A DNA stretch of 25,060 bases from a virus. The notes under the pieces were generated by a model. It was given only the letters and a program-made list of their open reading frames with translations. It had not been told where the DNA came from and did not search any database. A program made the translations under genes and the position numbers. This document shows positions 3 through 22,620 of the stretch, one piece after another. The first letter of the stretch is position 1. Each line of letters starts with the position of its first letter. Where the stretch lies: positions 1 to 25,060 of the IMG/VR virus record IMGVR_UViG_3300024346_000469. The stretch is one strand, 5' to 3'.

Positions 3-3000
3 GGATGGAACGATCCAGCTAACGCTAACTGGTATGATCAGTTTATTAAAGTTATAAATGCAGCACTCCCCGCAAGTCGACAGTTTGGAAATGCCGACGA
101 TAAAGCCGATATATACGGCATTTCCACAGAGCAATATCGATTCCAGGGATCTAATGTTAATGTACCTGTGTACAGTTTTGCCAAAGCAATTGACGGAAGA
201 AATATGACCTTTGAAGTAGTATCTACTACGTTTAAAGGCGCAGAAGAAATATACGAAGAACCGCCTGCCATCGGCAATAGATTAGCGTTTGTTTATAGAA
301 ATGACGGCAGAGGTGCCGGCAGTACTAGCAGCGGATTCTTCCTGCATTTTAGACAAGGATTACTAAATCAAGGCACATTTACTATTGATCAGCCAGCAAC
401 AAATGAAACAGTTGACCTTGATGCTGTTAACGTTAATAACACTGATGTGTGGTTATATCGCTTAGATCAAAATAGTGTTGAGTCAGAATATTGGGCCAAA
501 GTTCCTAATCTTGAAGGCAATAACATTATCTATAATAGTCTAAACAAGTCTATTAAAAATATTTATAATGTTATTACTAGATCAAATGATCGTATTAGTC
601 TAATATTTAGTGATGGAACTTTTGGCAATCTACCAAGAGGTACATTTAGAGTTTACTATCGCGCAAGTAACGGCATTAGCTATACAATTAATCCTCGCGA
701 TGTAAAAAACGTTTTAATCTCGGTTCCTTACGTGTCTAATGTAGGGCAAGCAGAAACTCTAACACTAACGCTAAGTTTGCAATCATCTGTAAATAATTCT
801 ACAGAAGCTGAAACAAACACTAGTATTAAAAATAATGCACCAGCAACCTATTACACACAAAATAGGATGATTACTGCTGAAGATTACAATGTAAGTCCGT
901 TAGGAGTTAATCAAGAAGTTGTTAAAGTTAAAGCAGTTAATAGAAGTGCCAGCGGCATTAGCCGATACTTTGATTTAATTGACCCCACTGGAAAGTACAG
1001 TAAGACAAATTTGTTTGGCGATGATGGGGCACTTTATAAAGAAGAATACACAACTAGTTTTAGATTTAATTATACTAGTCGTACCGATATTGAAGCAATG
1101 ATTTATAATCAATTGTACGAAACTTTAAAAACAAATCAATTGCGAGATTTTTACTACTCTAAGTTTTTTAGAATTGCCACAGACTCATTAAGTGTTACTT
1201 GGTATAGTAAGACAACAGACACAAATCAGTCAACAGGCTACATTGGAGAATTTGAATCACCATATAAACTTGGAACATATACCAGCACTAATTTACGATT
1301 TGTTGCCGCAGGTGCGTTATTAAAATTCACAGCACCTGCCGGATACTATTTTGATAGAACCAACGACAATGCAAAAACTTTTGGCTCAGCATCGGTTGCC
1401 AACTCGACTACTACGTTATGGGTAAAAGTAATATCAGTATTGGGCGACGGAACCAACGGCGGCAAAGGCGCCCTAGATGACGGATCTGGCACAATTATAT
1501 TAAATGATATTGTTCCCGAAGGCGCAGTATTATCTGAAATTATTCCAGCATGGAAAGCTACGATTAATACAACGGTAATCTCTACCATGGTAGATTTAAT
1601 ATTTTCTAATAAGCCCTTTAGATTACGATACGATATAGAAACTGCTACTTGGAAAATCATATTTGAAGTAAATTTAAATTCTCTAGATAATTTTAGTCTT
1701 GGTAAGCAAGGAGATAACTCTAATCAGCAATTAGATTCAAGCTGGTTAATATTGTTTACCACTGATACTGAATTTTACACAGTTGCTTCTCGACAACTAC
1801 GGTATATTTTTGAAAGCAATAATCAGATTCGATTCTTCTTTGATGCAAGTGATAAAATTTATGATACTAGAACAAACACTATTGTAAAAGATAAAATCAA
1901 AGTACTGGGAATTAATACAGCACCTCCAGGTTTTATTAATTCATTCACTTATGATCGTGATTGGGAAATTACCGAAGAGTATACTGGGTTAGATGGATAT
2001 GTTGATACAAAGAAAATTCAAGTTACTTTTAGCGATACCGACGATGACAGTGTAGTTGATAATCCAGAATTGTTTGAAGAAATTATAGATCAAGAAGACC
2101 CGCTTAACCCAGTTACAGATAATAAAAAATATATAATACTTGAAAGGTATGTAATTGCGCAAGGCCAAGAAGATTACAAACTTTTTGACAACAGTGGCAA
2201 TACAATTATTATTTTAGGCACTCAGCCAACACTAACATCAAGTTATACAGACGGACAATATTTTTACTTTAAAGATGCAATGGTTGTTAAAAGATTTAAT
2301 ACTAGTACATCTACATTTACATTATCATTAAATTACAAGGTATACAATGGCCGAAGAGATATTAAGTTTCAATATATTCATAATGCAGATTATGAATCTC
2401 GCATAGATCCTGGATTAACAAACATTATTGATACTTTTGTATTAACTAAACAATACGATAAAACATACCGACAGTGGTTATCAGGATCACGAACAACTGA
2501 ACCCCTAGCACCGAGTACTGATTATTTGTATACATTACTATCCACAGATCTTAATAAAATTAAATCTATTAGTGATGAATTAATTTATCATCCAGTAAAA
2601 TACAAAGTATTATTCGGGGAGAAAGCTTCATTGGATGTACAAGCAACTTTTAAAATTGTAAAAAATTCAGAAGTTGTTATCAGTGATAACGATATCAAGT
2701 CAAGAGTATTGGCAGCAATTAATGAATTCTTTGCTCTTGAAAATTGGGACTTTGGGGATAGTTTTTACTTTAGTGAATTATCGTCGTATGTAATGAATCG
2801 CCTAACTCCTAATATTGTAAACTTCTTAATAGTACCTAAAGATACTACACTAACATTTGGTAGCCTATATGAAATACGATCTGAAAAAGATCAAATTTTT
2901 ATTAACGGTGCAACTATAGACAATATTGAAATTATATCGGCAGTGACTGCTAGTAAAATTAATAGCAGCGGAACAATAACTATGACAACATCTACATTGA

Positions 3001-3032
3001 GTACACAGTCTATTACTAGTGGGAGTTATTAA
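3..3032 (+). CDS. 6: Baseplate wedge protein, gp6-like (5' end outside window)
   Basis: Structural component of the contractile-tail baseplate wedge; in T4, gp6 dimers hold the wedges together around the hub. The frame is open to the left edge, so the GTG at 168 is an internal codon and the first 55 visible residues precede it. At least 1009 residues are present, against about 660 in T4 gp6. Recognisable parts, numbered from the GTG: the run IFSDGTFGNLPRGTFRVYYR near 147-166, then YYTQNRMITAEDYNVSPLG near 229-247 (typical of gp6/baseplate-J-like proteins), and a C-terminus with FYFSELSSYV and IVPKDTTLTFGSLYEIRSEK followed by QIFINGATIDNIE, which I associate with gp6 of marine T4-like phages. 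The segment between (about 330-800) is beta-rich and accounts for the extra length. It overlaps the next gene by one base (TAATG). The family call is from remembered motifs, not a search. Confidence 0.82.
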   Translation, partial: GWNDPANANWYDQFIKVINAALPASRQFGNADDKADIYGISTEQYRFQGSNVNVPVYSFAKAIDGRNMTFEVVSTTFKGAEEIYEEPPAIGNRLAFVYRNDGRGAGSTSSGFFLHFRQGLLNQGTFTIDQPATNETVDLDAVNVNNTDVWLYRLDQNSVESEYWAKVPNLEGNNIIYNSLNKSIKNIYNVITRSNDRISLIFSDGTFGNLPRGTFRVYYRASNGISYTINPRDVKNVLISVPYVSNVGQAETLTLTLSLQSSVNNSTEAETNTSIKNNAPATYYTQNRMITAEDYNVSPLGVNQEVVKVKAVNRSASGISRYFDLIDPTGKYSKTNLFGDDGALYKEEYTTSFRFNYTSRTDIEAMIYNQLYETLKTNQLRDFYYSKFFRIATDSLSVTWYSKTTDTNQSTGYIGEFESPYKLGTYTSTNLRFVAAGALLKFTAPAGYYFDRTNDNAKTFGSASVANSTTTLWVKVISVLGDGTNGGKGALDDGSGTIILNDIVPEGAVLSEIIPAWKATINTTVISTMVDLIFSNKPFRLRYDIETATWKIIFEVNLNSLDNFSLGKQGDNSNQQLDSSWLILFTTDTEFYTVASRQLRYIFESNNQIRFFFDASDKIYDTRTNTIVKDKIKVLGINTAPPGFINSFTYDRDWEITEEYTGLDGYVDTKKIQVTFSDTDDDSVVDNPELFEEIIDQEDPLNPVTDNKKYIILERYVIAQGQEDYKLFDNSGNTIIILGTQPTLTSSYTDGQYFYFKDAMVVKRFNTSTSTFTLSLNYKVYNGRRDIKFQYIHNADYESRIDPGLTNIIDTFVLTKQYDKTYRQWLSGSRTTEPLAPSTDYLYTLLSTDLNKIKSISDELIYHPVKYKVLFGEKASLDVQATFKIVKNSEVVISDNDIKSRVLAAINEFFALENWDFGDSFYFSELSSYVMNRLTPNIVNFLIVPKDTTLTFGSLYEIRSEKDQIFINGATIDNIEIISAVTASKINSSGTITMTTSTLSTQSITSGSY

Positions 3033-6000
3033 TGGCAAATAACGATCAAAACGAATCAGGTCTTCCATTATCGGGTAAAGATAACAGAGATTCTGCTAGT
3101 TTACTGCCACGAATTTTTAGAACAGATAGTAACAAAAAGTTTTTACAGGCAACATTAGATCAGCTTACTCAACCGGGTACTGTTAAAAAAGTTAATGGAT
3201 ATATTGGACGTCAAAATGCAAAAGCAGTAACATCTGCTGATATTTTTGTAACAGCCACTGACACTGCTCGTCAAAATTATCAATTAGAACCAGTTGCAGT
3301 TATTCAAGATTATCTTGGAAATATTAATTTTTATAAAGATTACATTGATCATATAAATCATGTTGACGTATTTGGGGGCAATGTTTCAAACCACGAGAGG
3401 CTAAACAGCCAAGAATCATACTCGTGGAATCCACATATGAATTGGGATAAGTTTGTCAATTATCAACAATACTACTGGTTACCTTACGGTCCACTGCCCA
3501 TAGAAGTTGCCGGACAACAGCTAGCCATAGAAAGTACATATACAGTTGCCGCAGTTGACGAGTCGGATAATTATGCGTTTCTATTCTCTCCTGATGGATT
3601 AACTCGAAATCCCACATTGACATTATATAGAGGACAAACATACACGTTTGTTATTAATTCTCCGGGTAACCCCTTTAGCATTAAAACTACTAGAGTTTCC
3701 GGAAATCTTGAAAGATATACAATTGGAGTATCAGATAGTGCAGTAGAGGATGGAACAATAACATTCACAGTCGGGGTCAATGCGCCCGACGTATTATATT
3801 ATGTTAGTGAGAATAGTGTAGATACTGGAGGAGTATTCCATGTATTAGACATTGATGATAATACTTACTTGAATATTGATGCTGACGTATTAGGTAAGAA
3901 GACTTATACGATGAGTAGTGGAATGCCGCTGTCAAACGGAATGAAGTTAAAATTTACAGGCAACATTTATCCTGTAAATTATGCATCGGGTTATTGGTAT
4001 GTAGAAGGAGTGGGTACTGCAATTCGATTAGTTGCCGAAACTGACGTAGAAATTATCAGCAGCTACTCGCAAGAAAAAGCATTATTATTTGACGACGATG
4101 CGTTTGATCAAAGTCCATTCAGTACGGCAACTTCCTTTCCACAGAATAAAGATTATATTTTAGTTGCTCGTGGTAGTCCGGATAGAAATCCGTGGAGCCG
4201 ATATAATCGATGGTTCCACCAAGATGTAATTACATCTGCTTCAATAGCATCAGGACAAGTACCCACCCTTGATCAATCCGCCCGTGCAATCCGCCCTATT
4301 ATTGAATTTGATGCCGGACTAAAATTATTTAATTTTGGACACCAAGCAAAAACTAATGTTACGCTAATTGATACTTTTACAACAGATGCATTTTCCTCAA
4401 TTGAAGGCAAGTTAGGATACAATATTGATGGAGTAGATCTAGCTAACGGTATGAGAGTTTTGTTTACTGCCGATACTGATTCATTAGTAAAAGGTAGAAT
4501 TTTTGATATTAATTTTGTTAATGTTACAGTTCCCGGAAGACAAATAGGATTTTATGCATTATCAGGAATTGATCCTGTAACTGATATTATTACTATTGAA
4601 ATTAATACGTTAACTGGAGGAATTGGCCACGGTCTAACAACTGGTAATCAGGTGCTGTATCTTAACAATGGTAACACTAGTATCTCCGGGTTAACTAACA
4701 GAAAAGCATATTATGTATCAGTAGTTAATTCAACACAGATTAAACTATACACTGACAAGAACTTAACAGTATCAGCAGATATTTTTGCCACTGGATCCGA
4801 CGTTCACAAATTAGAAGCGTTTGCAGGCGTTCGCCGTCAGATCAACTTGGTAGAAGCTGCTGACAGTATTCCTTTAGAAAATGAGACTGTACTAATAGAG
4901 CAAGGTTCTGTAAATCAAGGACTAATGTATTGGTACACAGGCACAGCATGGAAATTAGGGCAAAATAAAACATTAGTTAATCAATCGCCGTTATTTGACG
5001 TGTTTGATTCTACTGGGGTTAGCTACGGAAATGCATTAGTGTATGACGGAACAACATTCACTGGAAATAAAATATTTTCATATAAGTTAGGAACTGGCAC
5101 TAACGATAGTGAATTAGGATTCCCATTAGCTTATCAGAATATAAACAACATTGGTGATATTGCGTTTGAATTTAATTTGTTATCTAGCAGCTTCAATTAT
5201 AAAAGCGTAGTCGACATTATTACTAAGAAAACTGATGTTGGGTTTCTAAAGTCCGTAACAAGTTTAACAATGGTTGAGTATGTTAACGGATGGAAGACTA
5301 CAGAAATAACACATTTACAACCTATTATTAGAATTTTTAAAGAAAGTGGGCTAGTTAATAATTTTCCTATTGATGTTTATTCTAACGTAGATGATTTAGA
5401 TGATTTAGAAGTTAGGGTATATATTAACGGAAAACGACTAGCTAGATCTGCGTATGCCATTGCTACTGGTAATATTAGAAAATATGTATTATTAACAACC
5501 GCTGTTGCAACTACAGATGTTATAACATTAAAATGTTTAGCAGCACAGCAAAAAAATGATAACGGATATTATGAAATTCCAGTTAATTTACAAAATAATC
5601 CGCTGAATGACAATCTATCTGAATTTACATTAGGTCAAGTAATTGATCACGTGGACTCGATAATAGATAACATTACTACATTTGTCGGTACATACCCGGG
5701 CACCGGTAATTTACGGGACATTGGAAATATTACACCCTACGGCACAAGATTTATTCAGCACAGCGGCCCAGTGAATTTAAGTTTATATCATCTTGGATCG
5801 TCGACTGCAAACGTTTTCAAGGCGCTTGAGCAAGCAAGAGATGATTACAGTAAATTTAAAAGAGCATTTATTGTAACAGCGTCAAGTTCGGGAATTGACA
5901 CTGATCCTCGACGTCATGTTGATTTTGTATTAGCAGAATTAGCAAAAGATAAATCTACTTCACGACCATACTATCTATCGGATATGTATGGCTACTCGGC

Positions 6001-9000
6001 ATCTACATTACTTGAATATACAGTCCTTGATGCTCGTACGAAAATGTATCCATTAACAACTGCATTTAATTTAACAGTATTATCTAATAAGTCTGTTAAC
6101 ATTTATCTTAATGAAGTACAGCTTATTGAAGGCATTGATTATGTTTTTGGCACTGACGTATTTTTTGAAATATTAACAGACTTAGTTGACGGCGATACAA
6201 TTGTTGCTGTAGAATACGAAAGCACTGACGGATCATTCTGTCCTGCAACTCCTACTAAATTAGGATTATATCCTAAGTTTGTCCCTTCAAAGTTCATTGA
6301 TACAACATATGCAGAACCAACAGAAGTTATACAAGGCCATGACGGTAGTATAACAATTGCGTTCGGCGACTATCGCGACGATTTAATATTAGAATTAGAA
6401 AAACGTATCTATAATAATATTAAAGTACAGTACGATTCAACTATTTTTAATATATATGATCATATTCCTGGATATGATAGAGTAACTACTTATTCAAAAG
6501 AAGAGTTTGAAGACGTATTAGGAACATTTTTCTATCAGTGGACTACTAATGTTGGAACGGACTATACTAAACAAAATGCCGAATGGTGGGACAGACTAAA
6601 TCCATTCACATTTAATTATCGTGGAAATTATACCCCTGACGGGGTATCTGTGCCTGCATTTTGGAGAGGTATTTACCGTTGGGTATTAGATACCGATCGC
6701 CCACATACTCATCCGTGGGAATGTTTAGGATTTAGTATACAACCAAAATGGTGGGAAGAAGTATATGGACCACTACCATATACAAGCGACAATTTAATCA
6801 TGTGGGATGATATTCGTCAAGGTATAGTTAAAGAACCGGGCCGACCTATTAGACGTTTGGAAAAATTTGCAAAATCAATATTAGCAAAGGGCGTTCCGGT
6901 AGACAATTCCGGCAACTTGCAAAACCCAGTCGATGCTAATTTTGTTAACGGCACAATTAAACCTACAGCCGAAGGATATTATACATTTGGAGATGTGGGC
7001 CCGGTTGAATCAGCATGGCGTCGTTCGGGGCATTATCCGTTTGCAGTTATTCAAACAGCCCTATTATTACAACCTAACAAAGTTTTAGGAACATGTTTAG
7101 ATCGAAGCCGTATAGTCCGTAACCTTAGCGGACAATTTGTATATGCCGATACAGGATTACGTATTCGACTTGCTGATATTGTACTGCCATCTACAACATT
7201 AAGTTCAACAAGGGTATTAACATCTGGTCTAATTAATTATATAATTGATTTTATGACTAACGATACAAGTGTATTGATTAATCAATACCAAACAGATTTA
7301 GATTCATTAACTAATAATCTTGGAGTTAAGTTGGGCGGATTTACTGCAAAGAGTAAATTTAAATTATTATTAGATAGCAAGAGTCCCACAAGTACAGGCG
7401 GGGTGTTTGTCCCAGAAGAAAATTACACTGTTTTTCTAAACACATCTTCAGCAGTTAAAAAAGTTGTATATAGCGCCGTGGTTATTACAAAACACCCCGA
7501 CGGATTTGAAATTACTGGGTATTACAACGAACAGCCGTATTTTAACTACTATCCATGGGTAGATTCGGCAAGAACTATTAATGTTGGAGGTATTTCTGAC
7601 AGTTATATTATATGGACCGCAGGAAAGCAATATGTCGCCGGAATTGTTGTAAATTATAATAATCAATATTATAGGGTAAACATTGCTCATACTGCAACTG
7701 ATACATTTGATAGTACGATGTTTTCAAGACTTGCTAACCTTCCAGTCACAGGCGGCCGCGATGCAAATATTCGAAAAGCGTGGGATACTACAACAAAACT
7801 AACTCTAGGATACGGCACAAAATTGTCCACAGTCCAAGATGTAGTCGATTTCTTGCAAGGGTACGGGGCATACTTAGCAGATCAGGGATTTGTGTTTAAC
7901 GACTTTAATACAGAATTAAAATCTATTACTAATTGGGAAACTGCTGTAAAAGAATTTATGTTCTGGACAACTCAGAACTGGGGAGCCGGCGCAGTACTTT
8001 CTTTAAGTCCGTCAGCAAACAGAATATCGATGGTAACTACTAATAGTGTAGTTAACGATCTACTAGATCCGTTCTTTGGATATAAAATATTTAGAGTAGA
8101 CGGTCAAAAATTAGAGCCTGAATTTACTAACACATATAGAAATGCTGAAGCTAATGAATTTTCAATAACGCCGGCTAACACAAATCACGGCATATATGGC
8201 GCTGTATTTTTTATGATACAGAAAGAACATGCATTAATTTTAGATAATACAACATTGTTTAATGACGTAATATATGACCTTGAGCCTGGATATAGGCAAG
8301 AGCGCATTAAAGTTATTGGATATGTTAGTCAAAATTGGAAGGGTGGATTTAATATTCCCGGATTTATATTTGACCAAGCTAAAATTAATGATTGGACACC
8401 GTGGGTTGATTATAAGTTAGGCGACATTGTAAAATACAAAGAATTTTATTATTCAGCATTGTCAACTCTTCCCGGAGTACAACAATTTTCTGCAGCTAAT
8501 TGGGCAATATTGGCAGAGAAGCCGACATCAAAGATGGTAGCCAACTGGGATTACAGAACAGAACAATTCACCGACTTTTATGATTTAGACACTGATAACT
8601 TTGATGCCGAACAACAAAAATTTGCTCAACATTTAATTGGATATCAGAAACGTCAGTATCTTGAAAATATTATCAAAGACGATGTAAGTCAATATAAATT
8701 CTATCAAGGAATGATTATTGAGAAAGGCACACAAAATGTGCTTAACAAACTATTTGATGTACTAAGTGCTGATGGCATGGAAAGTTTAACATTCAATGAA
8801 GAATGGGCAGTACGTGTTGGCGACTACGGAGCAGTTACAGCATTTGACGAAACAGAATTTATACTAGACGAATCAAAGTTTAAAATTAATCCCCAACCAG
8901 TTGAGCTAGTATCAGCCATTGATCCCACAGTGATAGATTTTGTGTATAGACAACGTCCGTCAGATGTGTATATTAAACCATTGGATTATAATAACGATAT

Positions 9001-12000
9001 ATGGACTGTAACCGGTACTAAACAGTATCTGCGTACTCCCGGATTTGTTAGATACGACGATGTAAAATTAAGTGTTGATGTATTAAGTGATGCGGTACAA
9101 TATGATATTAGTACATTTAGCGAAGGTGATTACGTCTGGTGTGCGTTCGAAAACAAGTTAAACAGCTTTAACGAAAAATGGAACGTATATCGATTTACTA
9201 ATAGTCTGTTTAATGTTGAGGCCGTGACGTATGTAACCGGTGTCTTATCTATTACATGTGACAGGATCCCTGATATCACGGCTGGCGATATACTTGGTAT
9301 TGAAAACAATGATTTGGTCAAAGGGTTCCATTCGGTATATTCAGTAGAATTGCGTACTATCAATATTAAAGTAAAAGTTGCAGGATGGGAAGCACCGGTT
9401 AATAGTACACAAATTTCACTGTATCAGTTCCTACCGTGCGTGTTTGATAACATTGAAAATGCAAACAATAACTTACCAACAGTTATCAAGCCTGGTGAAT
9501 TACTGTGGGCAAAAGATTCCGGTAACGGTAATTGGGGAGTGTATAAAAATACTAAAGTGTATAATGTTTCTAATATTGATCTTGCCACAGTTCCGGATCT
9601 TACCGGTATAAATTTTGGGAAGAAAGTAACATTATCACAATCAGGAACAACCGCAATAGTTACCGATGCAGATCAAGTAATTATTTTTGAAAAGTATTAT
9701 TCTACCCCTACTACATATAATTGGATTCAAAATCAATCAATAGTAATAGATACCTCAATTGCTGATATAGCAGCCCAAGAGTTTGGCTCTGAATCTGCAC
9801 TATCTGCCGATGGCAAATGGTTAGCTATTGCTGCTCCGTATGCATCTAATGTTAACAGCAGTGGATTAAATAATCAAGGATACGTTTCTCTTTATTATAA
9901 TACGCCTGGCACAGGGTATGTTTTTGTTGAGTATATTGTTAGTCAAACCCCGGATGACGACGAGTTGTTTGGATCTAAATTAGCATTTGCTAAAAATGGC
10001 AACACTTATATTTTAGCAATCTCGGCTCTTGATAAAGTATATTTTTATCAAGTAACAACGGGAGCATGGACTAATTATGTAACTGCATTGCCGATAATTG
10101 ATGTATATAATATTGCAATATCTGCTACCGGAAACATGTTTGTTGCAGCCGCACCGATTGCAAATGATAGTGCAGGTGATGTATATGTATATCAAATAGG
10201 TGAAACTGGATATGATTTGTTTGATACCTTATCAGGTGCTACAGGTAACAGATTCGGCGAAAGTATAGCAATATCGCAATCTGCTGATTACATTGCAATT
10301 GGCAGTTCATTAGTTGATGTAACAGAAGTTGACCAAGGAGCAGTGTACATTTATACGCTTGATCCTACACAGTATACTTTATATCAAAGTATTGTGAGTC
10401 CCGCAAAAGAACGAGGAGAGCAGTTCGGAGCCGCAGTATACTTTACTAACAATGATACTACATTAGTAGTACTTGCAAAACTTGGCGACTTAAACAGAAT
10501 AGGGACGATGGACGTTTATACAAGTTTATTAGAAGGCGCCGAGGCAGTTCATGGTAGTAGATATATTAATGATCCTGCATCCCCTCTTCGAAATTCTCCA
10601 ACTACATTTGATAGCAACACTCTTAGAATAGTTAATAAACAAGTAGATACTGGACGAATTGACGTGTATGATATGTATGGTTCTAAATTCTTGTATGGTG
10701 AAAGCCTTGACGCTGACATTGTTGCAGTGAACGGCAACGGCTACGGTGCATCAGTTGCAGCAGGTAATGACACTATTTTAGTTGGCGCACCTAAAGACGA
10801 TTTATTAACGGGAGCAGTATATTCTTACTCTAGGGCTGCTACGTATACGTCCTGGGAACTATACTATCAAGAACAACCAAGACCAAATATTTCTAATGTT
10901 AAAAAAGCGTACCTATATAACAGAGTAACTAACAGTATAGTAACATATCTTGATGTAGTTGACCCAATACAAGGAAAGATCCCCGGACCAGCCGATCAAG
11001 AAATTAGATATAAAACATACTTTGACCCCGCAACGTATTCTATAGGATCTGCTGCTGTTAATGTTGATAGTGGACTAAACTGGACTAAAAATCAAATAGG
11101 TATGTTGTGGTGGGATTTAACTCGCGCTAAGTTTTTAGATAATCAAGGTGGCGAAGTTGTATACAGATCAACAACGTGGAACAAGTTATATAAAACTGCC
11201 AGCATTGATATTTACGAATGGGTCGAAACAAAATACTTACCAAGTGAATGGGACAAATTAGCCGATACTGTTAAGGGATTAGCTGCTGGCATCAGCGGTA
11301 CAAGTCGTTACGGAGATGCAGTTTACAGTGTTAAAAACAAATATGATACGGTGGGGCAAAAATTAATCCCAACATATTATTTCTGGGTTAATAATAAAAC
11401 AGTTATACCTAATGTTGCAGGAAGGACGTTGTCAGCTGACAACGTCTCTGAATTAATTGCAGACCCCATCGGATACGGGTACACATGTGTAGCACCAACA
11501 GGCGCGAATAGCTTTAGTTTGGTTAATTTTAATAAAATTGTTCAAGGAACTGATGTAGTATTGAATTTCCAAACATGGCTAATTGACAATCACGAAATTA
11601 ATCTACATAGTCAGTGGAAAATTATAAGCGAGCATATTAATACTACTATTCCTAAGAATATTGAAAATAAATGGATAGATAGTTTGATCGGAAAAGACAG
11701 TAACGATCGAGTAGTACCTGATACCAATCTTCCAGTAAAAAATAGATACGGGATTGAATTTAGACCACGTCAGGGAATGTTTATCAATCGAGTTGAAGCT
11801 CTAAAACAATATATAGAACATGTAAATGCTGTACTAATGGAACAGTTAATTGTTGACGAGTTTGACCTAAGTGATTTACTGTTATCTGATCCACTACCAT
11901 CTACAGTTTCTGGATTATGGGATACTACAATAGATTTTGAGACTGAGTTAAAATTTATTGGTACAGCAACATTAGTTCAAGCAAGATTGACTGCTGTTAC

Positions 12001-15000
12001 TGAAAATGGAATTATAACTGATGTATTAATAGATAATCCGGGATATGGATATAACAATCCACCTTTGATTAAAATCAGCAGTTCGGGTGTCGGTGCAATA
12101 TTAACCGCAGTATTAGATGCTGTTGGTAGAATTGTTTCTGTTAAAATACAAAATCAAGGTCGTGGATACTTTGACGATACTATGTTGTCAGTTAGGTCGT
12201 ATTCTGTATTAGTATTAAGCGACACTAATTCTTTTAACAAGTGGAGTATATATGCATGGAATAGTAAAGACAAGACATGGGACAGATCAAGAAGTCAATC
12301 GTATGATGTAACAAAATTCTGGAATTATACTGATTGGTATGCTACTGGATATACACAGTTTACAAAAATTGATCACTTAGTTGATAACACATATTATCTT
12401 GTAACCTTATCTGTAAATATTGGAAATATAGTAAAGGTAAAAAATATTGGTACTGGCGGCTGGCTATTATTGGAAAAATACAATAATTTAACAACTATTG
12501 ATTACACGCAAAATTACAAAGTAGTTGGTAGACAAAATGGAACCATACAATTCTCAAGCAGTATCTATACGTTTGTTAACTCGTCGATAGGCTTTGATAA
12601 TCAATTATTTGATGCATCATTATATGATAATTTTGCAGCAGCAGAATTGCGAATCATCATTACTGCTATTAAAGACAAAATCTTTGTAGATAATTTACGA
12701 GTAGAATATTTAAAATTATTCTTCTCAAGTTTACGTTATGTATTGCACGAACAAATTTTTATTGACTGGGCATTTAAGACTAGCTTTGTAAAAGCAACTC
12801 ATAATGTTGGCGAGCTAAAAGAAAAAGTTACGTACAATAACGATAACTTGTCTAGTTTTGAAGATTATATAAATGAGGTAAAACCTTATAGAACAAAAAT
12901 TAGAGAGTATGTTAGCTCATACAATAAAACAGATTATGCCAGACAGTCAACCACTGACTTTGACTTAATTCCGTTAGTTTCTGATAATTTAACAGTTACT
13001 CCAATGAGTGTGGTAGTTAGTAACGATGGAAGTATTACGGCAACTTCAAGTGACATTCTTGTGTACCCGTGGAAACATTGGTATGACCATGTAGGATTTA
13101 CTATTCAGTCAATAGAAATATTTGACGGCGGCTCCGGATACATTAATCAACCAGTAGTTAGGATAGACGGAGGATTTGGTACAGGAGCAGCGGCCAAAGC
13201 ATATATTTCTAATGGTAAAGTTAATCGTATTAATATAGTATCTGGCGGCACAGGGTATCTTAAAGCCCCAATAATTACAATTGATGGCGGATTATCAGAA
13301 GGCGGGACTCCTGCAACGGTAGTGGCAATAATTGAAAGTGAAGTAGTTAGATCTAACAAAATCACTATTAAGTTTGATAGAATAACTCGTTCGTATTATA
13401 TTAGTGAAAAAACTGAAACTGAAACATTTACTGGTACTGGATCTCGTGTACAGTTTGCGTTAAAGTGGAGTCCTAGAATAGAAATTGGATCAGCATCTAT
13501 TAAGTTATATCCAGTGGGTATTGATCCTGATGCACCGGGCGTAACCGGCATTGATATTTTACGTGGCGAATATGCATTAACCACTAAAAAATCTACAAGC
13601 AGAGGATACACTAGCTATTCGGGACTGTTAACATTGGACACAGCCCCTGCTGTGGGTGAAACTATTAGGATCACTTACGAAAAGAATTTTGAACATATGT
13701 CAGCGGCTGACAGAATTAATTTCTTCTATGAGCCATCAAGTGGCATGTTAGGAAAAGATCTTGCGCAGTTGATGCGTGGAATTGATTACGATGGCGTTCA
13801 ATTACAAGGAATGGGATTCGGGGCAACTGGAGGATGGGATGCGCTTCCGTGGTTTAGCGATAGTTGGGACGGATTTGACGCCGCATTTGATGATAGAATC
13901 TTCACAGCAGGCGCCGGAGAGTATACATATGATTTACAATATGCTCCGGCAGTTGCCGAAATACTTAACATATATGTTAACGGTACTCGTATTGACGATC
14001 CTGATTTTATAACATATCCGTTGGCAGGTAAGCCGAATGTAGTAATGTTGCCAATTGCAGGCAACGGATCAACCGAAGTGTTTACTATACCCAACGCACA
14101 CTTGACTATTGCTGCTGGTGATAAAGTTGTATTTCGTAAAAGCACAAGCGACGGAAGTGTTCTTCCGCAACCAAATGAATACGACACGCAACTTCAAGGC
14201 GGTGCGTTTAACGGCTCAGTCCTAACAACCGCTACTGGATATGCTCCTGCAGATATTAATATTGATGGCGACGATTTTGTCACCGCAACAACAAGCAACG
14301 CCCCGGAGGAGATTGTTCCTGGGCACGTAACAGATGCGTTAGCAATCAAAGTGTTCCATAGACCGGCAAGTGGTGCTCCTAATATTTTGTTTAAGAATTA
14401 TGTAAGCAACGGCATAAACACCACTTTTGTTGTGGGTCAACACTTTGCAACCGAACGGGCAGTAATTGTTAAAGTTGGAAATGTTGTAATTGAACAGACA
14501 GCTTATAATATTGACTGGCCGTCTAATTCTGTGATATTTGATCTTGCGCCAATAGATAATTTGATAGTAAGTATAATAAGTGTTGGATTCAACAGTGATA
14601 ATATTTTAGATTTAGATTATTTTATTGCCGACGGCACCACTACCGAATACGTTACTCGTGCTCCGTGGATTAATTCGGGACTAAGCTCTACAGTATTAGT
14701 TAATGGATTAGTAATTAGTTACGAATTATTTAGAACTGATTCTACATACAGTAGCCCTAATAGGACAGGAATTCGATTTGGCGCTCCAGTGACCTTAAAC
14801 GCACTTATTAACTATATGATAGATACTAGCACAACTATACAGACGGCTAGCGTAGTAAAGAGTCAGACTATTACAACAGACGGCTCTACTACAATTTATG
14901 ATTTAGATAATTTAAGCCCTGACTTATTACCAGGCAACGGGTTACAGCCATACGAAACAAATGTAATTGTGCGTAAAGGACAAGAAATATTACGTCCACC

Positions 15001-16315
15001 AACAGTGATATATTTCACAATGGCAGACAATGTATTGTCGTATGCAATTCCTTCACATAAATTTGCAACACACACAATTAACGCTACTGATATTAGAGCA
15101 TATTCTGCTTCAAATAAGTTAGAACAGGGTGTGGGATATGTTGTTGATTTGTTTGGAATTACGATTAACATTTCTCAAGCATCGTATGTTGCAGGGGATA
15201 AACTTGCAGTAGTGATTGACTTATCTTCAGATTATACAATAACAGATGCAGGAACAATTGAGTTTACTGATACTTATCCTGCATCCACAACGTTAGAAAT
15301 AGTTACATTCTATAATCACATGTTATTAGATATAGATAGGACTACTGATATATTTGTTCCATCAGCTACATTAACTCCGGGCACAACTGATTATTACGAA
15401 TTTACCAACAAGTTAGGCGGATATTTTACTCTACGCCGCCCTGCTGTATCAGATGATTTTGTATGGATTATTAAAAACGGCACGTTACTAACACATAGTG
15501 TTGATTATGTTGTAGAAGATGATCGAATAACTGTTAAATTAAAAGATTCTCTAGAAGATACAGATGTAATTCAAGTAATGTTGTTTACTGACGAAGTTAT
15601 ACGTACGACATTTGGATATATGCAGTTTAAAGACATGTTAAATCGAGTACATTACAAGCGTTTACGTGCAGACAAAGCATCAACACTGGCTGCTGAATTA
15701 ATACAATCTGATATCGAAATTACCGTAGTAGACGGATCTGTATTTTCTCTACCTAACCCGGCATTAAACCTGCCAGGTATTATTGAAATTAACGGTGAAC
15801 GTATCGAATACTTTACTAAAGTTGGAAATGTTTTAGGTCAATTGAGACGAGGTACATTAGGAACAGGAACCCCTACAGTACATATTGTAGGAGAAGTAGT
15901 CCAGGACATTGGCCCAACTGAAACAATACCGTATACTGATCAAATCATTGTTGATACAGTAGTTAGTGATGGAGTTACTACAAATGTGGGCAACTTAACA
16001 TATATTCCGGAAAATATAAACGAAGTTGATGTGTTCGTGGGTGGATATAAGCTAAAGAAAGTTGCCTATAGTCTGTTTGAAGAACTAAATGACCAGCCAT
16101 ACAGTTTAGAAGGGGACAGTACTTTCCCTGCAGAATTTAGTATAGGTGGAATTGATAATAGCGTCACGTTAACTACTGCCGCCGCCGATAATATTAAAGT
16201 GGTTATTGTTAAGAAAATAGGCAAAGAATGGGGCGATGCAGGTAAGAGCTTGGCAAATTCCGATAATAAGATCGCGAATTTCTTGAAGGAAAACACAACG
16301 GTTTGGCCACGATAA
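3032..16315 (+). CDS. Giant virion structural protein (4427 aa), gene 7 position of T4-like baseplate cluster
   Basis: Predicted structural protein of about 480 kDa, probably part of or attached to the baseplate. The ATG is preceded by GGGAG at 3021-3025, six bases away, and overlaps the gp6 stop. Visible modules: 1-165 conserved head (SLLPRIFRT, KKVNGYIGRQNAK, YWLPYGP); 176-277 cupredoxin-like fold without copper ligands; 525-600 HGLTTGNQVLYL-type module; 1183-1265 tryptophan-rich block (WECLGFSIQPKWWEEVYGP); 1525-1570 and 1788-1827 carbohydrate-binding-like motifs; 2185-2607 FG-GAP propeller; about 2997-3052 and 3361-3420 GxGY repeats; 3280-3302 NEVKPYRTKIREY; about 3460-4427 a chain of VNG-type beta modules ending in LGQLRRGTLGTG and an IANFLKENTTVWPR tail. 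No signal peptide or membrane segment is apparent. Position after gp6 suggests the gp7 slot (T4 gp7 is about 1030 aa), but I see no clear gp7 identity. Similar large structural proteins occur in marine T4-like phages. Confidence 0.8.
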   Translation: MANNDQNESGLPLSGKDNRDSASLLPRIFRTDSNKKFLQATLDQLTQPGTVKKVNGYIGRQNAKAVTSADIFVTATDTARQNYQLEPVAVIQDYLGNINFYKDYIDHINHVDVFGGNVSNHERLNSQESYSWNPHMNWDKFVNYQQYYWLPYGPLPIEVAGQQLAIESTYTVAAVDESDNYAFLFSPDGLTRNPTLTLYRGQTYTFVINSPGNPFSIKTTRVSGNLERYTIGVSDSAVEDGTITFTVGVNAPDVLYYVSENSVDTGGVFHVLDIDDNTYLNIDADVLGKKTYTMSSGMPLSNGMKLKFTGNIYPVNYASGYWYVEGVGTAIRLVAETDVEIISSYSQEKALLFDDDAFDQSPFSTATSFPQNKDYILVARGSPDRNPWSRYNRWFHQDVITSASIASGQVPTLDQSARAIRPIIEFDAGLKLFNFGHQAKTNVTLIDTFTTDAFSSIEGKLGYNIDGVDLANGMRVLFTADTDSLVKGRIFDINFVNVTVPGRQIGFYALSGIDPVTDIITIEINTLTGGIGHGLTTGNQVLYLNNGNTSISGLTNRKAYYVSVVNSTQIKLYTDKNLTVSADIFATGSDVHKLEAFAGVRRQINLVEAADSIPLENETVLIEQGSVNQGLMYWYTGTAWKLGQNKTLVNQSPLFDVFDSTGVSYGNALVYDGTTFTGNKIFSYKLGTGTNDSELGFPLAYQNINNIGDIAFEFNLLSSSFNYKSVVDIITKKTDVGFLKSVTSLTMVEYVNGWKTTEITHLQPIIRIFKESGLVNNFPIDVYSNVDDLDDLEVRVYINGKRLARSAYAIATGNIRKYVLLTTAVATTDVITLKCLAAQQKNDNGYYEIPVNLQNNPLNDNLSEFTLGQVIDHVDSIIDNITTFVGTYPGTGNLRDIGNITPYGTRFIQHSGPVNLSLYHLGSSTANVFKALEQARDDYSKFKRAFIVTASSSGIDTDPRRHVDFVLAELAKDKSTSRPYYLSDMYGYSASTLLEYTVLDARTKMYPLTTAFNLTVLSNKSVNIYLNEVQLIEGIDYVFGTDVFFEILTDLVDGDTIVAVEYESTDGSFCPATPTKLGLYPKFVPSKFIDTTYAEPTEVIQGHDGSITIAFGDYRDDLILELEKRIYNNIKVQYDSTIFNIYDHIPGYDRVTTYSKEEFEDVLGTFFYQWTTNVGTDYTKQNAEWWDRLNPFTFNYRGNYTPDGVSVPAFWRGIYRWVLDTDRPHTHPWECLGFSIQPKWWEEVYGPLPYTSDNLIMWDDIRQGIVKEPGRPIRRLEKFAKSILAKGVPVDNSGNLQNPVDANFVNGTIKPTAEGYYTFGDVGPVESAWRRSGHYPFAVIQTALLLQPNKVLGTCLDRSRIVRNLSGQFVYADTGLRIRLADIVLPSTTLSSTRVLTSGLINYIIDFMTNDTSVLINQYQTDLDSLTNNLGVKLGGFTAKSKFKLLLDSKSPTSTGGVFVPEENYTVFLNTSSAVKKVVYSAVVITKHPDGFEITGYYNEQPYFNYYPWVDSARTINVGGISDSYIIWTAGKQYVAGIVVNYNNQYYRVNIAHTATDTFDSTMFSRLANLPVTGGRDANIRKAWDTTTKLTLGYGTKLSTVQDVVDFLQGYGAYLADQGFVFNDFNTELKSITNWETAVKEFMFWTTQNWGAGAVLSLSPSANRISMVTTNSVVNDLLDPFFGYKIFRVDGQKLEPEFTNTYRNAEANEFSITPANTNHGIYGAVFFMIQKEHALILDNTTLFNDVIYDLEPGYRQERIKVIGYVSQNWKGGFNIPGFIFDQAKINDWTPWVDYKLGDIVKYKEFYYSALSTLPGVQQFSAANWAILAEKPTSKMVANWDYRTEQFTDFYDLDTDNFDAEQQKFAQHLIGYQKRQYLENIIKDDVSQYKFYQGMIIEKGTQNVLNKLFDVLSADGMESLTFNEEWAVRVGDYGAVTAFDETEFILDESKFKINPQPVELVSAIDPTVIDFVYRQRPSDVYIKPLDYNNDIWTVTGTKQYLRTPGFVRYDDVKLSVDVLSDAVQYDISTFSEGDYVWCAFENKLNSFNEKWNVYRFTNSLFNVEAVTYVTGVLSITCDRIPDITAGDILGIENNDLVKGFHSVYSVELRTINIKVKVAGWEAPVNSTQISLYQFLPCVFDNIENANNNLPTVIKPGELLWAKDSGNGNWGVYKNTKVYNVSNIDLATVPDLTGINFGKKVTLSQSGTTAIVTDADQVIIFEKYYSTPTTYNWIQNQSIVIDTSIADIAAQEFGSESALSADGKWLAIAAPYASNVNSSGLNNQGYVSLYYNTPGTGYVFVEYIVSQTPDDDELFGSKLAFAKNGNTYILAISALDKVYFYQVTTGAWTNYVTALPIIDVYNIAISATGNMFVAAAPIANDSAGDVYVYQIGETGYDLFDTLSGATGNRFGESIAISQSADYIAIGSSLVDVTEVDQGAVYIYTLDPTQYTLYQSIVSPAKERGEQFGAAVYFTNNDTTLVVLAKLGDLNRIGTMDVYTSLLEGAEAVHGSRYINDPASPLRNSPTTFDSNTLRIVNKQVDTGRIDVYDMYGSKFLYGESLDADIVAVNGNGYGASVAAGNDTILVGAPKDDLLTGAVYSYSRAATYTSWELYYQEQPRPNISNVKKAYLYNRVTNSIVTYLDVVDPIQGKIPGPADQEIRYKTYFDPATYSIGSAAVNVDSGLNWTKNQIGMLWWDLTRAKFLDNQGGEVVYRSTTWNKLYKTASIDIYEWVETKYLPSEWDKLADTVKGLAAGISGTSRYGDAVYSVKNKYDTVGQKLIPTYYFWVNNKTVIPNVAGRTLSADNVSELIADPIGYGYTCVAPTGANSFSLVNFNKIVQGTDVVLNFQTWLIDNHEINLHSQWKIISEHINTTIPKNIENKWIDSLIGKDSNDRVVPDTNLPVKNRYGIEFRPRQGMFINRVEALKQYIEHVNAVLMEQLIVDEFDLSDLLLSDPLPSTVSGLWDTTIDFETELKFIGTATLVQARLTAVTENGIITDVLIDNPGYGYNNPPLIKISSSGVGAILTAVLDAVGRIVSVKIQNQGRGYFDDTMLSVRSYSVLVLSDTNSFNKWSIYAWNSKDKTWDRSRSQSYDVTKFWNYTDWYATGYTQFTKIDHLVDNTYYLVTLSVNIGNIVKVKNIGTGGWLLLEKYNNLTTIDYTQNYKVVGRQNGTIQFSSSIYTFVNSSIGFDNQLFDASLYDNFAAAELRIIITAIKDKIFVDNLRVEYLKLFFSSLRYVLHEQIFIDWAFKTSFVKATHNVGELKEKVTYNNDNLSSFEDYINEVKPYRTKIREYVSSYNKTDYARQSTTDFDLIPLVSDNLTVTPMSVVVSNDGSITATSSDILVYPWKHWYDHVGFTIQSIEIFDGGSGYINQPVVRIDGGFGTGAAAKAYISNGKVNRINIVSGGTGYLKAPIITIDGGLSEGGTPATVVAIIESEVVRSNKITIKFDRITRSYYISEKTETETFTGTGSRVQFALKWSPRIEIGSASIKLYPVGIDPDAPGVTGIDILRGEYALTTKKSTSRGYTSYSGLLTLDTAPAVGETIRITYEKNFEHMSAADRINFFYEPSSGMLGKDLAQLMRGIDYDGVQLQGMGFGATGGWDALPWFSDSWDGFDAAFDDRIFTAGAGEYTYDLQYAPAVAEILNIYVNGTRIDDPDFITYPLAGKPNVVMLPIAGNGSTEVFTIPNAHLTIAAGDKVVFRKSTSDGSVLPQPNEYDTQLQGGAFNGSVLTTATGYAPADINIDGDDFVTATTSNAPEEIVPGHVTDALAIKVFHRPASGAPNILFKNYVSNGINTTFVVGQHFATERAVIVKVGNVVIEQTAYNIDWPSNSVIFDLAPIDNLIVSIISVGFNSDNILDLDYFIADGTTTEYVTRAPWINSGLSSTVLVNGLVISYELFRTDSTYSSPNRTGIRFGAPVTLNALINYMIDTSTTIQTASVVKSQTITTDGSTTIYDLDNLSPDLLPGNGLQPYETNVIVRKGQEILRPPTVIYFTMADNVLSYAIPSHKFATHTINATDIRAYSASNKLEQGVGYVVDLFGITINISQASYVAGDKLAVVIDLSSDYTITDAGTIEFTDTYPASTTLEIVTFYNHMLLDIDRTTDIFVPSATLTPGTTDYYEFTNKLGGYFTLRRPAVSDDFVWIIKNGTLLTHSVDYVVEDDRITVKLKDSLEDTDVIQVMLFTDEVIRTTFGYMQFKDMLNRVHYKRLRADKASTLAAELIQSDIEITVVDGSVFSLPNPALNLPGIIEINGERIEYFTKVGNVLGQLRRGTLGTGTPTVHIVGEVVQDIGPTETIPYTDQIIVDTVVSDGVTTNVGNLTYIPENINEVDVFVGGYKLKKVAYSLFEELNDQPYSLEGDSTFPAEFSIGGIDNSVTLTTAAADNIKVVIVKKIGKEWGDAGKSLANSDNKIANFLKENTTVWPR
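3557..3862 (+). other. Cupredoxin-like domain lacking copper ligands (residues 176-277 of the giant protein)
   Basis: The pattern PTLTLYRGQTYTFVINS, then NPFSIKT, then GTITFTVGVNAPDVLYYV and finally GGVFHVLD follows the blue-copper-like module common in marine structural proteins. That module usually reads HPFxIKT and YYxCxxH. Here residue 213 is Asn in place of the usual His, and residues 256-262 read YYVSENS, so the Cys and second His are also absent. The fold is inferred from motif memory; the missing ligands are read directly. Confidence 0.6.
9585..10855 (+). repeat. FG-GAP (integrin-alpha type) beta-propeller repeats within the giant protein
   Basis: Residues about 2185-2607 hold at least seven repeats with the form FG-x-(A/S)-x-(S/A)-x-(D/N)-G-x-x-(L/I)-A-(I/V)-x-(A/S)-P followed by a G-x-V-Y-x-Y strand. 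Repeat starts: FGKK at 2195, FGSE at 2251, FGSK at 2313, a copy without FG near 2360 (NIAISATGNMFVAAAP), FGES at 2408, FGAA at 2465 and YGAS at 2571. A further strand GRIDVYD lies between the last two, so there may be one more degenerate blade. Seven is the count of the integrin alpha head. The role as an adhesion or ligand-binding module is inference. Confidence 0.75.
11425..11446. repeat. Perfect 22-bp palindrome inside the giant gene
   Basis: The half-site GACGTTGTCAG (11425-11435) is followed immediately by its exact reverse complement CTGACAACGTC (11436-11446). It encodes part of the ordinary-looking stretch GRTLSADNVSE and lies in no recognised repeat of the protein. Symmetry was checked base by base. 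The function, if any, is unknown. Confidence 0.95.
12019..12186 (+). repeat. GxGY repeat pair, first copy (giant protein, about residues 2997-3052)
   Basis: Two half-repeats of a short beta motif, DNPGYGYNNPPLIKIS and QNQGRGYFDD, separated by an Ala/Val-rich strand pair (GVGAILTAVLDAVGRIVSVKI). The same G-x-G-Y followed by P-x-I/V-x-I module recurs near 13110-13290. This repeat is frequent in large phage structural proteins. No specific function is known to me. Confidence 0.6.
13110..13290 (+). repeat. GxGY repeat pair, second copy (giant protein, about residues 3361-3420)
   Basis: Two half-repeats, FDGGSGYINQPVVRIDGG and SGGTGYLKAPIITIDGG, joined by TGAAAKAYISNGKVNRINIV. They are better preserved than the copy near 12019-12186 and clearly related to it. 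The conserved NEVKPYRTKIREYVSSY block lies between the two copies. Confidence 0.65.
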
Positions 16316-16318: not shown

Positions 16319-16338
16319 ATAAACAATGAGAGATCAAT

Positions 16339-16950
16339 ATGCAAGGTAAAGACTTATCAGGAATTCATATAGAAGGTCATATTAAAATTTATGACCCTAA
16401 AACCCAAGAGGTTTTCATTAATAAACGTAATGCTATACACTACGAAAATATGAGCGTTGCGTTGGCAGAAAGTATTGCCAACGCCGGGCAAGGATTTATC
16501 TATGAAATTGCGTTTGGCAACGGTGGCACAACTGTAGATCCTACAGGTATTATTACCTACCTAACGCCAAATTCAACAGGCACTAGTGCTACATTGTACA
16601 GCGAAACGTATAGTAAGGTAGTAGATGATCGCTCAGTAACTAATTTAGATCCAGTTAGAAATAAAATTGAAACACGTCACGTGACGGGAACAAATTATAC
16701 TGACGTATTTGTTACTTGCTTGTTAGACTACGGCGAGCCTCAAGGACAAGACGCATTTGACAATACTACTAACAATAATTCAGACTTTGTGTTTGATGAA
16801 TTGGGATTAAAATCTTATAGTACTACTGGAAACAGCAAGTTGTTAACTCACGTAATTTTCCACCCGGTTCAGAAGAGTTTAAATCGATTAATCCAAGTTG
16901 ACTATACTGTACGTATACAGAGTTTGACTGGACTAAGTGAGGTTGCATAA
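16339..16950 (+). CDS. Conserved T4-like phage virion structural protein, 203 aa
   Basis: Small protein between the giant baseplate protein and the fibre genes. It starts at an ATG with GAGAG six bases upstream and ends overlapping the next gene by one base. Features: an opening IHIEGHIKIYDPKTQEVFIN strand pair, the NAIHYENMSVALAESIAN helix-like segment near residues 32-49, IYEIAFGNGGTTVDPTG near 54-70, and a C-terminal VIFHPVQKSLNRLIQVDYTV strand. I recognise this architecture from small structural proteins next to fibre or baseplate genes in marine T4-like phages, where it is normally left without a function. In T4 the position would be gene 8, but the 334-residue gp8 shares no motif I can see. 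A role as a fibre-to-baseplate connector is possible from context only. Confidence 0.7.
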   Translation: MQGKDLSGIHIEGHIKIYDPKTQEVFINKRNAIHYENMSVALAESIANAGQGFIYEIAFGNGGTTVDPTGIITYLTPNSTGTSATLYSETYSKVVDDRSVTNLDPVRNKIETRHVTGTNYTDVFVTCLLDYGEPQGQDAFDNTTNNNSDFVFDELGLKSYSTTGNSKLLTHVIFHPVQKSLNRLIQVDYTVRIQSLTGLSEVA

Positions 16951-21085: not shown

Positions 21086-21086
21086 A

Positions 21087-21094: not shown

Positions 21095-21117
21095 CTAACA
21101 GTTAAGGGGTAGATCGA

Positions 21118-22620
21118 ATGGCGTATAGCATTGACAGATATAATGGGACAACACTTGCCGTCGTTGAAGACGGTACCATCGACAATACGCTCGATATTAA
21201 ACTTATCGGCAAAAATTACGCTGGCTATGGTGAAGTCCAAAACGAAAATTTTTTACATTTGTTGGAGCACTTTTCTAGCCCAACAGAACCCCCACGCAAG
21301 ATTACTGGTCAAATTTGGTATAATAGTGCTACTAAAAAATTACAATATTATACAGCAACTGGTACTACTGGGTGGAAAACGACCGGTGGCGCAGAAATTG
21401 GAGCCACTCCTCCGACTAGTCCTACAGTAGGTGATTTTTGGTGGGATACTGCTAACGATCAGTTATATTCATGGAGCGGAACAGAATTTATCCTAGTTGG
21501 ACCTCAAGGAGTCTCAGGTAGCGGTACTACGCAGATGAAATCTCGTAGTCTTAGGGCTACCTCTGGAACAGGCGGAGCATTAGTACCAGTTATCCAAGCG
21601 GTAGTTGACGACGATACAATCTATATTATTTCTAAAACGTCGTTTGTAATTGATAATGCAGTACTAGGCAATAGTATTGCAGGGTTTGGAATTATTAAAG
21701 CCGGTATTACATTAAAAGATACTAATAATGCAGAAGGCATAACAACAACTGCAACTGAAGTGTTTCACGGAACTGCCACAAATGCACTTGCACTAGGCGG
21801 CGTATCTGCTGACGATTTCATTGGCATTCTTGACTTTGATTTCTCCGCAGCAATTGGCGCGGTTGGATTTAACGACAACGGACTTACAGTCGGCGGGTCT
21901 GTAGGCGCACTAACAAATACACTAACAGTTAATATTACTAGTGGTAATCCGTTAATTAAGTCTGCAACTTCTCTGATGTCCTTCCAGACAACATCAGGAA
22001 GTATTAGAACACCATTGACACTATCTGGTAATAATATTTTACCAGGTGCAGATAGCATATCTAATATTGGATCTGCTAGTTTTAAATATGCAACAATTTA
22101 TGCAACATCATTCAATGGTCCAGCAACTCAAGCTGACACGCTTAATGTTGGTGGAATATATCGATCAGCAACCGCAAATGCGGTAGTACACACTGTAGCA
22201 GCTCGAGACAATCTTGGCGATTTAACAGCTAACGTATTCCGTGGTATAGCTACTTCAGCACAATATGCTGACTTGGCAGAAAAATACCTTGCAGATGCAG
22301 AATATGAAACCGGAACAGTAGTTGTAGTAGGTGGTGAAAAAGAAGTCACTGCTAGTTCGTGGGGTAAACGTGCAATAGGCGTAGTATCTGCTAACCCAGC
22401 TTACATGATGAATAGTGAGCTAGAAGGCGGAACATACATTGCTCTAAAAGGTCGTGTTCCTGTAAAAGTAAGTGGGGCTGTTCGCAAAGGCGACCACCTA
22501 ATTGCAGCAAATGACGGATGCGCAAGCGTTGCTGTTCATCATTCAAATGATGTTTTTGCCATTGCATTAGAAAGTAGCGACAATACTGGTGTCAAACTAG
22601 TTGAAGCAATTGTATTATAA
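21118..22620 (+). CDS. Tail fibre-like protein with YADLAEKY-type C-terminal domain (fibre paralogue 3)
   Basis: Third member of the fibre family. The N-terminal 140 residues repeat GKNYAGYGEVQNENFLHLLE, GQIWYNSATKKLQYY and GDFWWDTANDQLYSWSG, ending in ILVGPQG. A shaft follows (ITSGNPLIKSATSLMSFQTT; ILPGADSISNIGSASFKYAT near 303-322). From about 382 there is a distinct domain: AQYADLAEKYLADAEYETGT, VVVGGEKEVT, IGVVSANPAYMMN, ALKGRVPVKVSGAVRKGDHL and AIALESSD. This end is found on fibres of T4-like cyanophages and resembles the intramolecular chaperone/Peptidase_G2 type of fibre terminus, but I cannot identify catalytic residues. It may act in trimer folding, with or without self-cleavage. It starts after a 32-base gap with its own Shine-Dalgarno and a possible late promoter. 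Confidence 0.8.
   Translation: MAYSIDRYNGTTLAVVEDGTIDNTLDIKLIGKNYAGYGEVQNENFLHLLEHFSSPTEPPRKITGQIWYNSATKKLQYYTATGTTGWKTTGGAEIGATPPTSPTVGDFWWDTANDQLYSWSGTEFILVGPQGVSGSGTTQMKSRSLRATSGTGGALVPVIQAVVDDDTIYIISKTSFVIDNAVLGNSIAGFGIIKAGITLKDTNNAEGITTTATEVFHGTATNALALGGVSADDFIGILDFDFSAAIGAVGFNDNGLTVGGSVGALTNTLTVNITSGNPLIKSATSLMSFQTTSGSIRTPLTLSGNNILPGADSISNIGSASFKYATIYATSFNGPATQADTLNVGGIYRSATANAVVHTVAARDNLGDLTANVFRGIATSAQYADLAEKYLADAEYETGTVVVVGGEKEVTASSWGKRAIGVVSANPAYMMNSELEGGTYIALKGRVPVKVSGAVRKGDHLIAANDGCASVAVHHSNDVFAIALESSDNTGVKLVEAIVL

Follow-up and report, generated by a model that had tools for sequence, protein, structure and literature searches.

The window analysed here, a stretch of 25,060 nucleotides of viral DNA from IMG/VR, is dominated by one giant open reading frame, which fills 53% of its length and encodes a product of 4427 aa with a computed mass of 492 kDa and pI of 4.75. 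The ATG of this frame begins on the last stop-codon base of a gp6-type baseplate wedge gene. The product of this wedge gene is 58% identical to that encoded upstream of the giant in a related 259-kb contig (G010). Features of the window are collected in Table 1.

Table 1. Genes, domains and conserved blocks in the window (nucleotide positions of the window; residues of the giant protein).
Feature	Position	Strand	Evidence
gp6-type baseplate wedge gene, 5′ end truncated by contig	3..3032	+	phrog_10646 ‘baseplate wedge subunit’ E 4e-224; phrog_219 E 1.5e-9
Giant gene, probable wedge protein	3032..16315	+	ATG start, 4427 codons, no internal stop; phrog_10938 ‘virion structural protein’ E 4e-299
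N-terminal conserved block of short helices, residues 1-165	3032..3526	+	In 10/10 isolates; AF2 model
Predicted cupredoxin-like beta-sandwich, residues ~157-285	3500..3886	+	AF2 + Foldseek vs PDB: rusticyanin TM(target) 0.45
Optional 100-aa module, residues 501-600	4532..4831	+	In 18/58 tree rows; 5 parsimony changes on core tree
Conserved block, residues 1183-1265 (HPWE.LGF...WW..YG motif)	6578..6826	+	Isolate alignment
CBM5/12-type carbohydrate-binding module, residues 1528-1555	7613..7696	+	PF02839 E 1.4e-7, above cut-off; in 7/10 family members
Putative gp7 core, first half, residues 1603-1650	7838..7981	+	hhalign to gp7-core columns 25-71
CBM-like insert (by reading; W..W..Y..GD.V.Y...YY.A) within putative gp7 core, residues 1781-1850	8372..8581	+	Alignment
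Putative gp7 core, second half, residues 1865-1914, K-G-T motif	8624..8773	+	hhalign to gp7-core columns 62-112
Predicted FG-GAP beta-propeller, ~seven blades by reading, residues ~2200-2615	9629..10876	+	PF14312 E 1e-4; Foldseek
Conserved scaffold block, residues 2625-2950	10904..11881	+	Alignment
First copy of G-x-GY repeat module, residues 2989-3053	11996..12190	+	hhalign to cyanophage gp7 columns 2105-2169; weak alone
Conserved block, residues 3200-3310 (DYINEVKPYRTKIREYV)	12629..12961	+	Alignment; XacN1, RAS14 mostly without
Second copy of G-x-GY repeat module, residues 3357-3435	13100..13336	+	phrog_460 E 2.8e-17
Variable C-terminal beta-repeat region, residues 3641-4230	13952..15721	+	Length 73-690 aa (isolates), 188-954 aa (environmental relatives)
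Conserved 203-aa partner gene	16339..16950	+	Homologues in PA5oct, Phosso, Atu_ph07, SCTP-2, Vibrio 2.275.O, RaK2; phrog_11259
Tail-collar fibre protein with common N-terminal anchor domain	16950..19232	+	PF07484 E 5e-17; anchor as in PA5oct gp358
Second protein bearing this anchor domain	19232..21085	+	Sequence comparison
Third protein with that anchor domain, Peptidase_G2-like C-terminus	21118..22620	+	Sequence comparison

An initial annotation of this DNA had described a single uninterrupted 13.3-kb gene with a product of 4427 residues, which was borne out by the intact frame and by single-frame homologues. A chance frame of such length is impossible. When the gene was compared with its closest relative (L085), synonymous changes outnumbered non-synonymous changes in every 500-codon block (33–71 versus 8–29), so that the giant is evidently translated along its whole length and, judging from these alignments, is under purifying selection from end to end. 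An artefactual join of two genes—the outcome that the initial annotation had named as fatal to its claim—or read-through of a decayed locus might be suspected from one relative (L119), in which the gene occupies two overlapping frames on the + strand (4707–11864 and 11803–20010; 2386 and 2736 codons), because the gene is truly split or because the assembly holds a frameshift. However, a single open frame is found in some 50 further contigs and in the ten isolates, and with selection acting throughout, this explanation is already refuted; chimeric assembly is likewise ruled out as the source of the giant by the single-frame homologues and the synonymous pattern.

Homologues were found in 20 further IMG/VR contigs, each as one open frame (19 complete, 4206–5185 aa; one truncated by the contig end), together with 32 additional complete homologous ORFs (4203–5055 aa), while a degenerate scan of IMG/VR returned at least 577 related stretches. 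In ten isolated jumbo phages a giant of 3138–4555 aa lies directly behind gp6: PA5oct (3857 aa), Phosso (4555), RaK2 (3326), SCTP-2 (3807), Atu_ph07 (4449), Vibrio 2.275.O (3771), GAP32 (~3340), 121Q (~3330), XacN1 (3313) and RAS14 (3138). A gp7-type gene is expected directly downstream of gp25–gp6; in the window gp6 lies directly upstream of the giant and in relatives gp25 precedes gp6, the order gp25–gp6–giant being found in PA5oct, Phosso, GAP32, 121Q, XacN1 and contig G010. Similarity to phrog_10938 extends across the conserved scaffold of the protein, in the alignment with the ten isolates as in the profile match, and the giants of this family (PA5oct gp355, RaK2 ORF070, 121Q gp582, Atu_ph07 gp180) have the slot behind gp6 and the conserved blocks in common with the window protein; Sinorhizobium phage AP-J-162 gp58 was grouped with them by size and place. 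The window protein and its environmental relatives are longer (4.2–5.2 thousand residues) than most isolate proteins (3.1–3.9 thousand) and differ from them in a 70-aa insert in the putative gp7 core; in RaK2-like members the cupredoxin-like module is missing and the propeller region is far shorter.

Mass spectrometry of virions has detected 17 peptides of the 382-kDa phAPEC6 gp245, which adjoins a wedge gene (PMC7247149), and 21 peptides of CBB_236, which adjoins gp6 (PMC5259590); we assigned both as orthologues of the giant by position beside gp6 and, for phAPEC6, also by mass. PA5oct gp355 carries an ‘ESI-MS/MS’ mark in its sequence record. Members of the family appear to be virion proteins in these relatives, a status that would extend to the window protein by relationship. 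The gene and its virion nature are already known, as ‘virion structural protein’ with no assigned role, and our literature search found no published account of the jumbo-phage giant as gp7.

Alignment of the window protein with 62 relatives separated a scaffold kept by nearly all rows (residues 1–165, 351–500, 601–1000, 1051–1500, 1601–1780, 1851–1960, 2601–2950 and 3101–3320) from intervening segments that are either whole or missing. Residues 166–350, for example, comprise 185 aa in the window and 7 aa in RaK2, 121Q, GAP32 and Vibrio 2.275.O, while residues 2051–2600 range from 66 aa (XacN1, RAS14) to ~1335 aa (Phosso, Atu_ph07). On a tree built from scaffold columns, module presence changes one to six times per module, below the shuffled-label mean in every case; an insertion of >160 aa in the C-terminal repeat region changes six times. 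Lineages have therefore acquired and lost modules around a persistent scaffold. The comparison thus supports growth by module insertion into a conserved scaffold, as the initial annotation had proposed for what it saw as a mosaic of modules between conserved blocks: shorter homologues lack whole modules, among them the cupredoxin-like domain, the 100-aa module at 501–600, CBM5/12-type pieces and the predicted FG-GAP propeller, and relatives vary in module presence on the core tree, rather than displaying the identical module order that it had listed as a possible refutation. Three of its conserved blocks (residues 1–165, 1183–1265 and around 3200–3310) reappeared in our alignment, with residues 1201–1250 showing the highest identity to distant isolates in the protein (44%); from the last ~180 residues that it had also listed, only ~4251–4300 proved conserved, and it had passed over equally conserved blocks at 351–500, 601–1000, 1601–1650, 1851–1960 and 2601–2950.

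Among the inserted modules, the cupredoxin-like domain also matched multicopper oxidases in the PDB (Foldseek) and has close relatives in cyanophage fibres. The ligand columns (His/Cys/His/Met) of copper-binding cupredoxins are not kept, so copper binding was rejected as its function, and no baseplate protein of known structure was found among the 50 best PDB matches of the AF2 model of the N-terminal part that includes this domain. Among viral models, Foldseek also connected this module with ‘beta-sandwich proteins’ from Marseillevirus and Pithovirus, a curious distribution across phages and giant eukaryotic viruses. The predicted propeller has the repeat signature and the modelled fold of FG-GAP proteins: its PF14312 match (22.9 bits) falls just under the cut-off of 23, and Foldseek ranks integrin alpha headpieces highest for its AF2 model (E 9e-12, TM(target) 0.60). 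Here, however, the propeller is one domain inside a phage protein, with ~14% identity to integrin alpha, and we claim no common function. The block that bears it is the fastest-changing part of the giant in comparison with a relative (L086). The segment at residues 1781–1850 is 70 aa long in all environmental relatives versus 20 aa in all isolates. The G-x-GY family (phrog_460) is also matched by cyanophage gp7.

The initial annotation had suggested an ancestral wedge protein and set the giant in the gene position of T4 gp7. In cyanophages and in Ochrobactrum phage OC the gene-7 slot adjoins gp8; it encodes proteins of 3515–6376 aa in the former (at least 4108 aa in P-SSM5) and one of 631 aa in OC. 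By hhalign, the OC protein matches T4 gp7 residues 644–892 and the cyanophage giants match the OC protein in two pieces with a ~2200-aa insert between them. Direct comparison of the whole window family with T4 gp7 by hhalign found no match; the window gp6, used as a positive control, was equally unmatched to T4 gp6 by direct profile comparison, so we built a deeper gp7-core profile from OC-type proteins of 80 further contigs together with T4 and cyanophage sequences. The OC-type core alone recovered T4 gp7 residues 647–758 in the PDB (E 9e-10). When ~110 stretches of the giant were compared with the deep profile, the two best were residues 1868–1913 and 1604–1650, in the correct order for the two halves of the core; these lie ~215 residues apart, and the K and G of the K-G-T motif in the second half are invariant in the family columns. 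Spliced together, the halves scored 36.1 (probability 77%, E 2e-5) over ~85–95 columns with splice points picked after the scan, against null maxima of 19.4 for 252 random splices and 21.6 for 182 similarly optimised reversed splices. Isolates alone gave the same register with a weaker score (21.5), the RaK2-like group alone 18.7, and the T4-only core 13.9 against the giant. We regard this as moderate evidence, at the level of remote profile similarity recognised after the scan, for the helical core with its D-x-D and K-G-T motifs (T4 647–758) in the giant, and likewise as moderate evidence that this core is itself split by an insertion. A gp7 ancestry therefore fits the gene-7 slot and the core at residues 1603–1650 and ~1865–1913, a core that profile comparison puts outside the blocks listed in the initial annotation. 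For the later segment conserved among gp7 proteins (the HP segment, T4 865–890, with an HP-x-G motif), no plausibly placed stretch of the giant scored higher than the reversed control.

The HP segment of the giant may have been lost or have diverged past detection; block 3200–3310, considered as a candidate, was unsupported by an HP-segment profile search, and residues 20–60 (LPRIFRTD), considered as the start of the gp7 core, were unsupported by the deep profile. The Pfam model of the T4 gp7 helical domain (PF21428) was unmatched in the window, in any jumbo genome and in cyanophage SynMITS9220M01, and its only match in OC was below the cut-off and outside gp7; the model appears T4-specific, given its silence on the gp7 of both SynMITS9220M01 and OC. 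Direct sequence search of the whole giant against the PDB returned only chance antibody matches, and a profile of the region 1605–1960 returned nothing. AF2 confidence was low in the core region (model residues 248–367, pLDDT mostly <50), so that a fold match to gp7 was not possible; this region may fold only with gp6.

In our preferred reading, the giant is quite probably a gp7-type subunit of the contractile-tail baseplate wedge, enlarged by inserted beta modules. In T4 and XM1, one gp7 joins two gp6 subunits in each of six wedges (PMC3004832, PMC10457771). By analogy, the short helical core of the giant would join two gp6-type neighbours in a (gp6)2-gp7 heterotrimer, with six heterotrimers per baseplate, and the cupredoxin-like, CBM5/12, FG-GAP propeller, G-x-GY and C-terminal repeat modules inserted around and inside that core would form the outer baseplate and a surface for fibre attachment and host contact. 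With ~1600 residues before the core, a ~215-residue insert in it and ~2500 residues after it, six copies of 492 kDa would add up to an enlarged outer baseplate of ~3 MDa carrying sugar- or protein-binding modules. A precedent for an insert in the gp7 core is provided by XM1 gp17, a gp7 orthologue of 242 aa, in which a loop inserted in the core domain holds the tail spikes (PMC10457771). More speculatively, and on balance doubtfully, gp7 itself may have become the outer baseplate, six copies displaying propeller, cupredoxin-like domain and CBMs as an exchangeable ~3-MDa host-binding apron that does the work of gp8 and of part of the periphery in T4.

Several other readings were weighed against the gp7-type assignment. 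The giant might be a baseplate-periphery or adhesin protein unrelated to gp7, the real gp7 being another small, unrecognised gene: T4 gp7 was not matched directly, many of its modules belong to adhesin or fibre types, and an orthologue as small as that of XM1 is easily missed. Yet the collinear core match lies well above both nulls, every relative examined retains the slot, which a true gp7 occupies in cyanophages and OC, and the 203-aa neighbour has no gp7 match, which together make this unlikely. Extreme length could also point to a virion polyprotein cut after synthesis, which would be compatible with a gp7 core; this is improbable, as the virion lists give phAPEC6 gp245 and CBB_236 each as one product, although a chain need not be intact to yield such peptide counts.

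A fusion of the wedge genes for gp7, gp8 and gp10, along the lines of the absorption of gp7 and gp10 functions raised in the initial annotation, would account for the gp8 Pfam family being unmatched in all ten giant-bearing jumbo genomes and present in OC and in a cyanophage, where gp8 is separate. Cyanophage gp7 is just as large while keeping gp8, however, and searches for gp8, gp9, gp10 and gp11 inside the giant gave no signal clearly above reversed controls, by a method that is weak at such distance and for which the positive control was weak too. Moreover, in contig G010 the giant is immediately followed by a 1027-codon ORF that starts with a gp9/10-type N-domain, PA5oct has a separate gene annotated ‘T4-like gp10’ (gp358) a few genes past the giant, and gp358 has an N-terminal anchor in common with the downstream proteins of the window. 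Such separate gp10-like genes indicate that gp10 was probably not absorbed into the giant; its absorption is not supported by these comparisons, and we consider fusion of all these wedge genes very unlikely; gp8 by itself may have been taken up.

In the window, the anchor (GKN..GY....ENF..LLE.F....P....GQ.W) recurs in three consecutive products (16950–22620) with different ends—tail collar, unassigned and Peptidase_G2-like—which look like an exchangeable fibre set on one anchor. G010 also holds a 5826-codon ORF (G010:C1:129581) with a gp9/10-type N-domain (PF07880), which may encode a giant fibre protein. Further downstream in the window, adjacent genes at 23931–24770 and 24763–25059 encode similar proteins, glycosyltransferase-like by reading; neither matches Pfam and the first has no PHROG match.

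Enlarged gp7 proteins are known from Kyanoviridae as the ‘baseplate wedge initiator’ (phrog_2885, phrog_701), in SynMITS9220M01 (4067 aa), ACG-2014f (4225 aa), S-RSM4 (3515 aa) and Syn33 (6376 aa). They resemble the window giant in lying between gp6 and the wedge gene that follows, in size and in the G-x-GY module, but have a clear gp7 core at the N-terminus followed by a ~2200-aa insert before the HP segment, a YHYH domain and a separate gp8, and outside the modules their sequences are not clearly similar to those of the window family. T4 gp7 (PDB 5HX2, 5IV5), for which the initial annotation had correctly given about 1030 residues (1032 aa in the sequence compared), is alike in the gp6–gp7 order and in remote core similarity; it shows no detectable direct similarity, is a quarter of the length and has the HP segment that is absent from the window protein. 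Minimal forms of gp7 are found in OC, with a core segment as in the window family and almost no added modules, and in XM1, where gp17, likened to the giant from its published description (PMC10457771), is almost devoid of them.

Products of the gp7 slot thus range from 242 aa (XM1) through 400–1032 aa (OC-type, T4) to ~6400 aa (Syn33), a series that apparently includes the jumbo-phage giants. If so, one could trace baseplate size and complexity to sites of insertion in a single protein, and proteins among the largest unexplained in PA5oct-, 121Q- and RaK2-type phages would gain an assignment testable by proteomics and cryo-EM. The largest gene-7-slot protein encountered was that of Prochlorococcus phage Syn33 (L113:8162-21728; record 53719-72849), with its 6376 aa taken from annotated coordinates. 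The gp6-position protein of Vibrio phage 2.275.O (L007:9941-13804) is annotated with CBM5/12, a module type also found in the window giant, and modules may be moving between neighbouring wedge genes. In Salicola phage SCTP-2 the gp6-position protein (gp141; L005:8627-17917) is also enlarged, to 3096 aa, so growth may extend beyond the gp7 slot.
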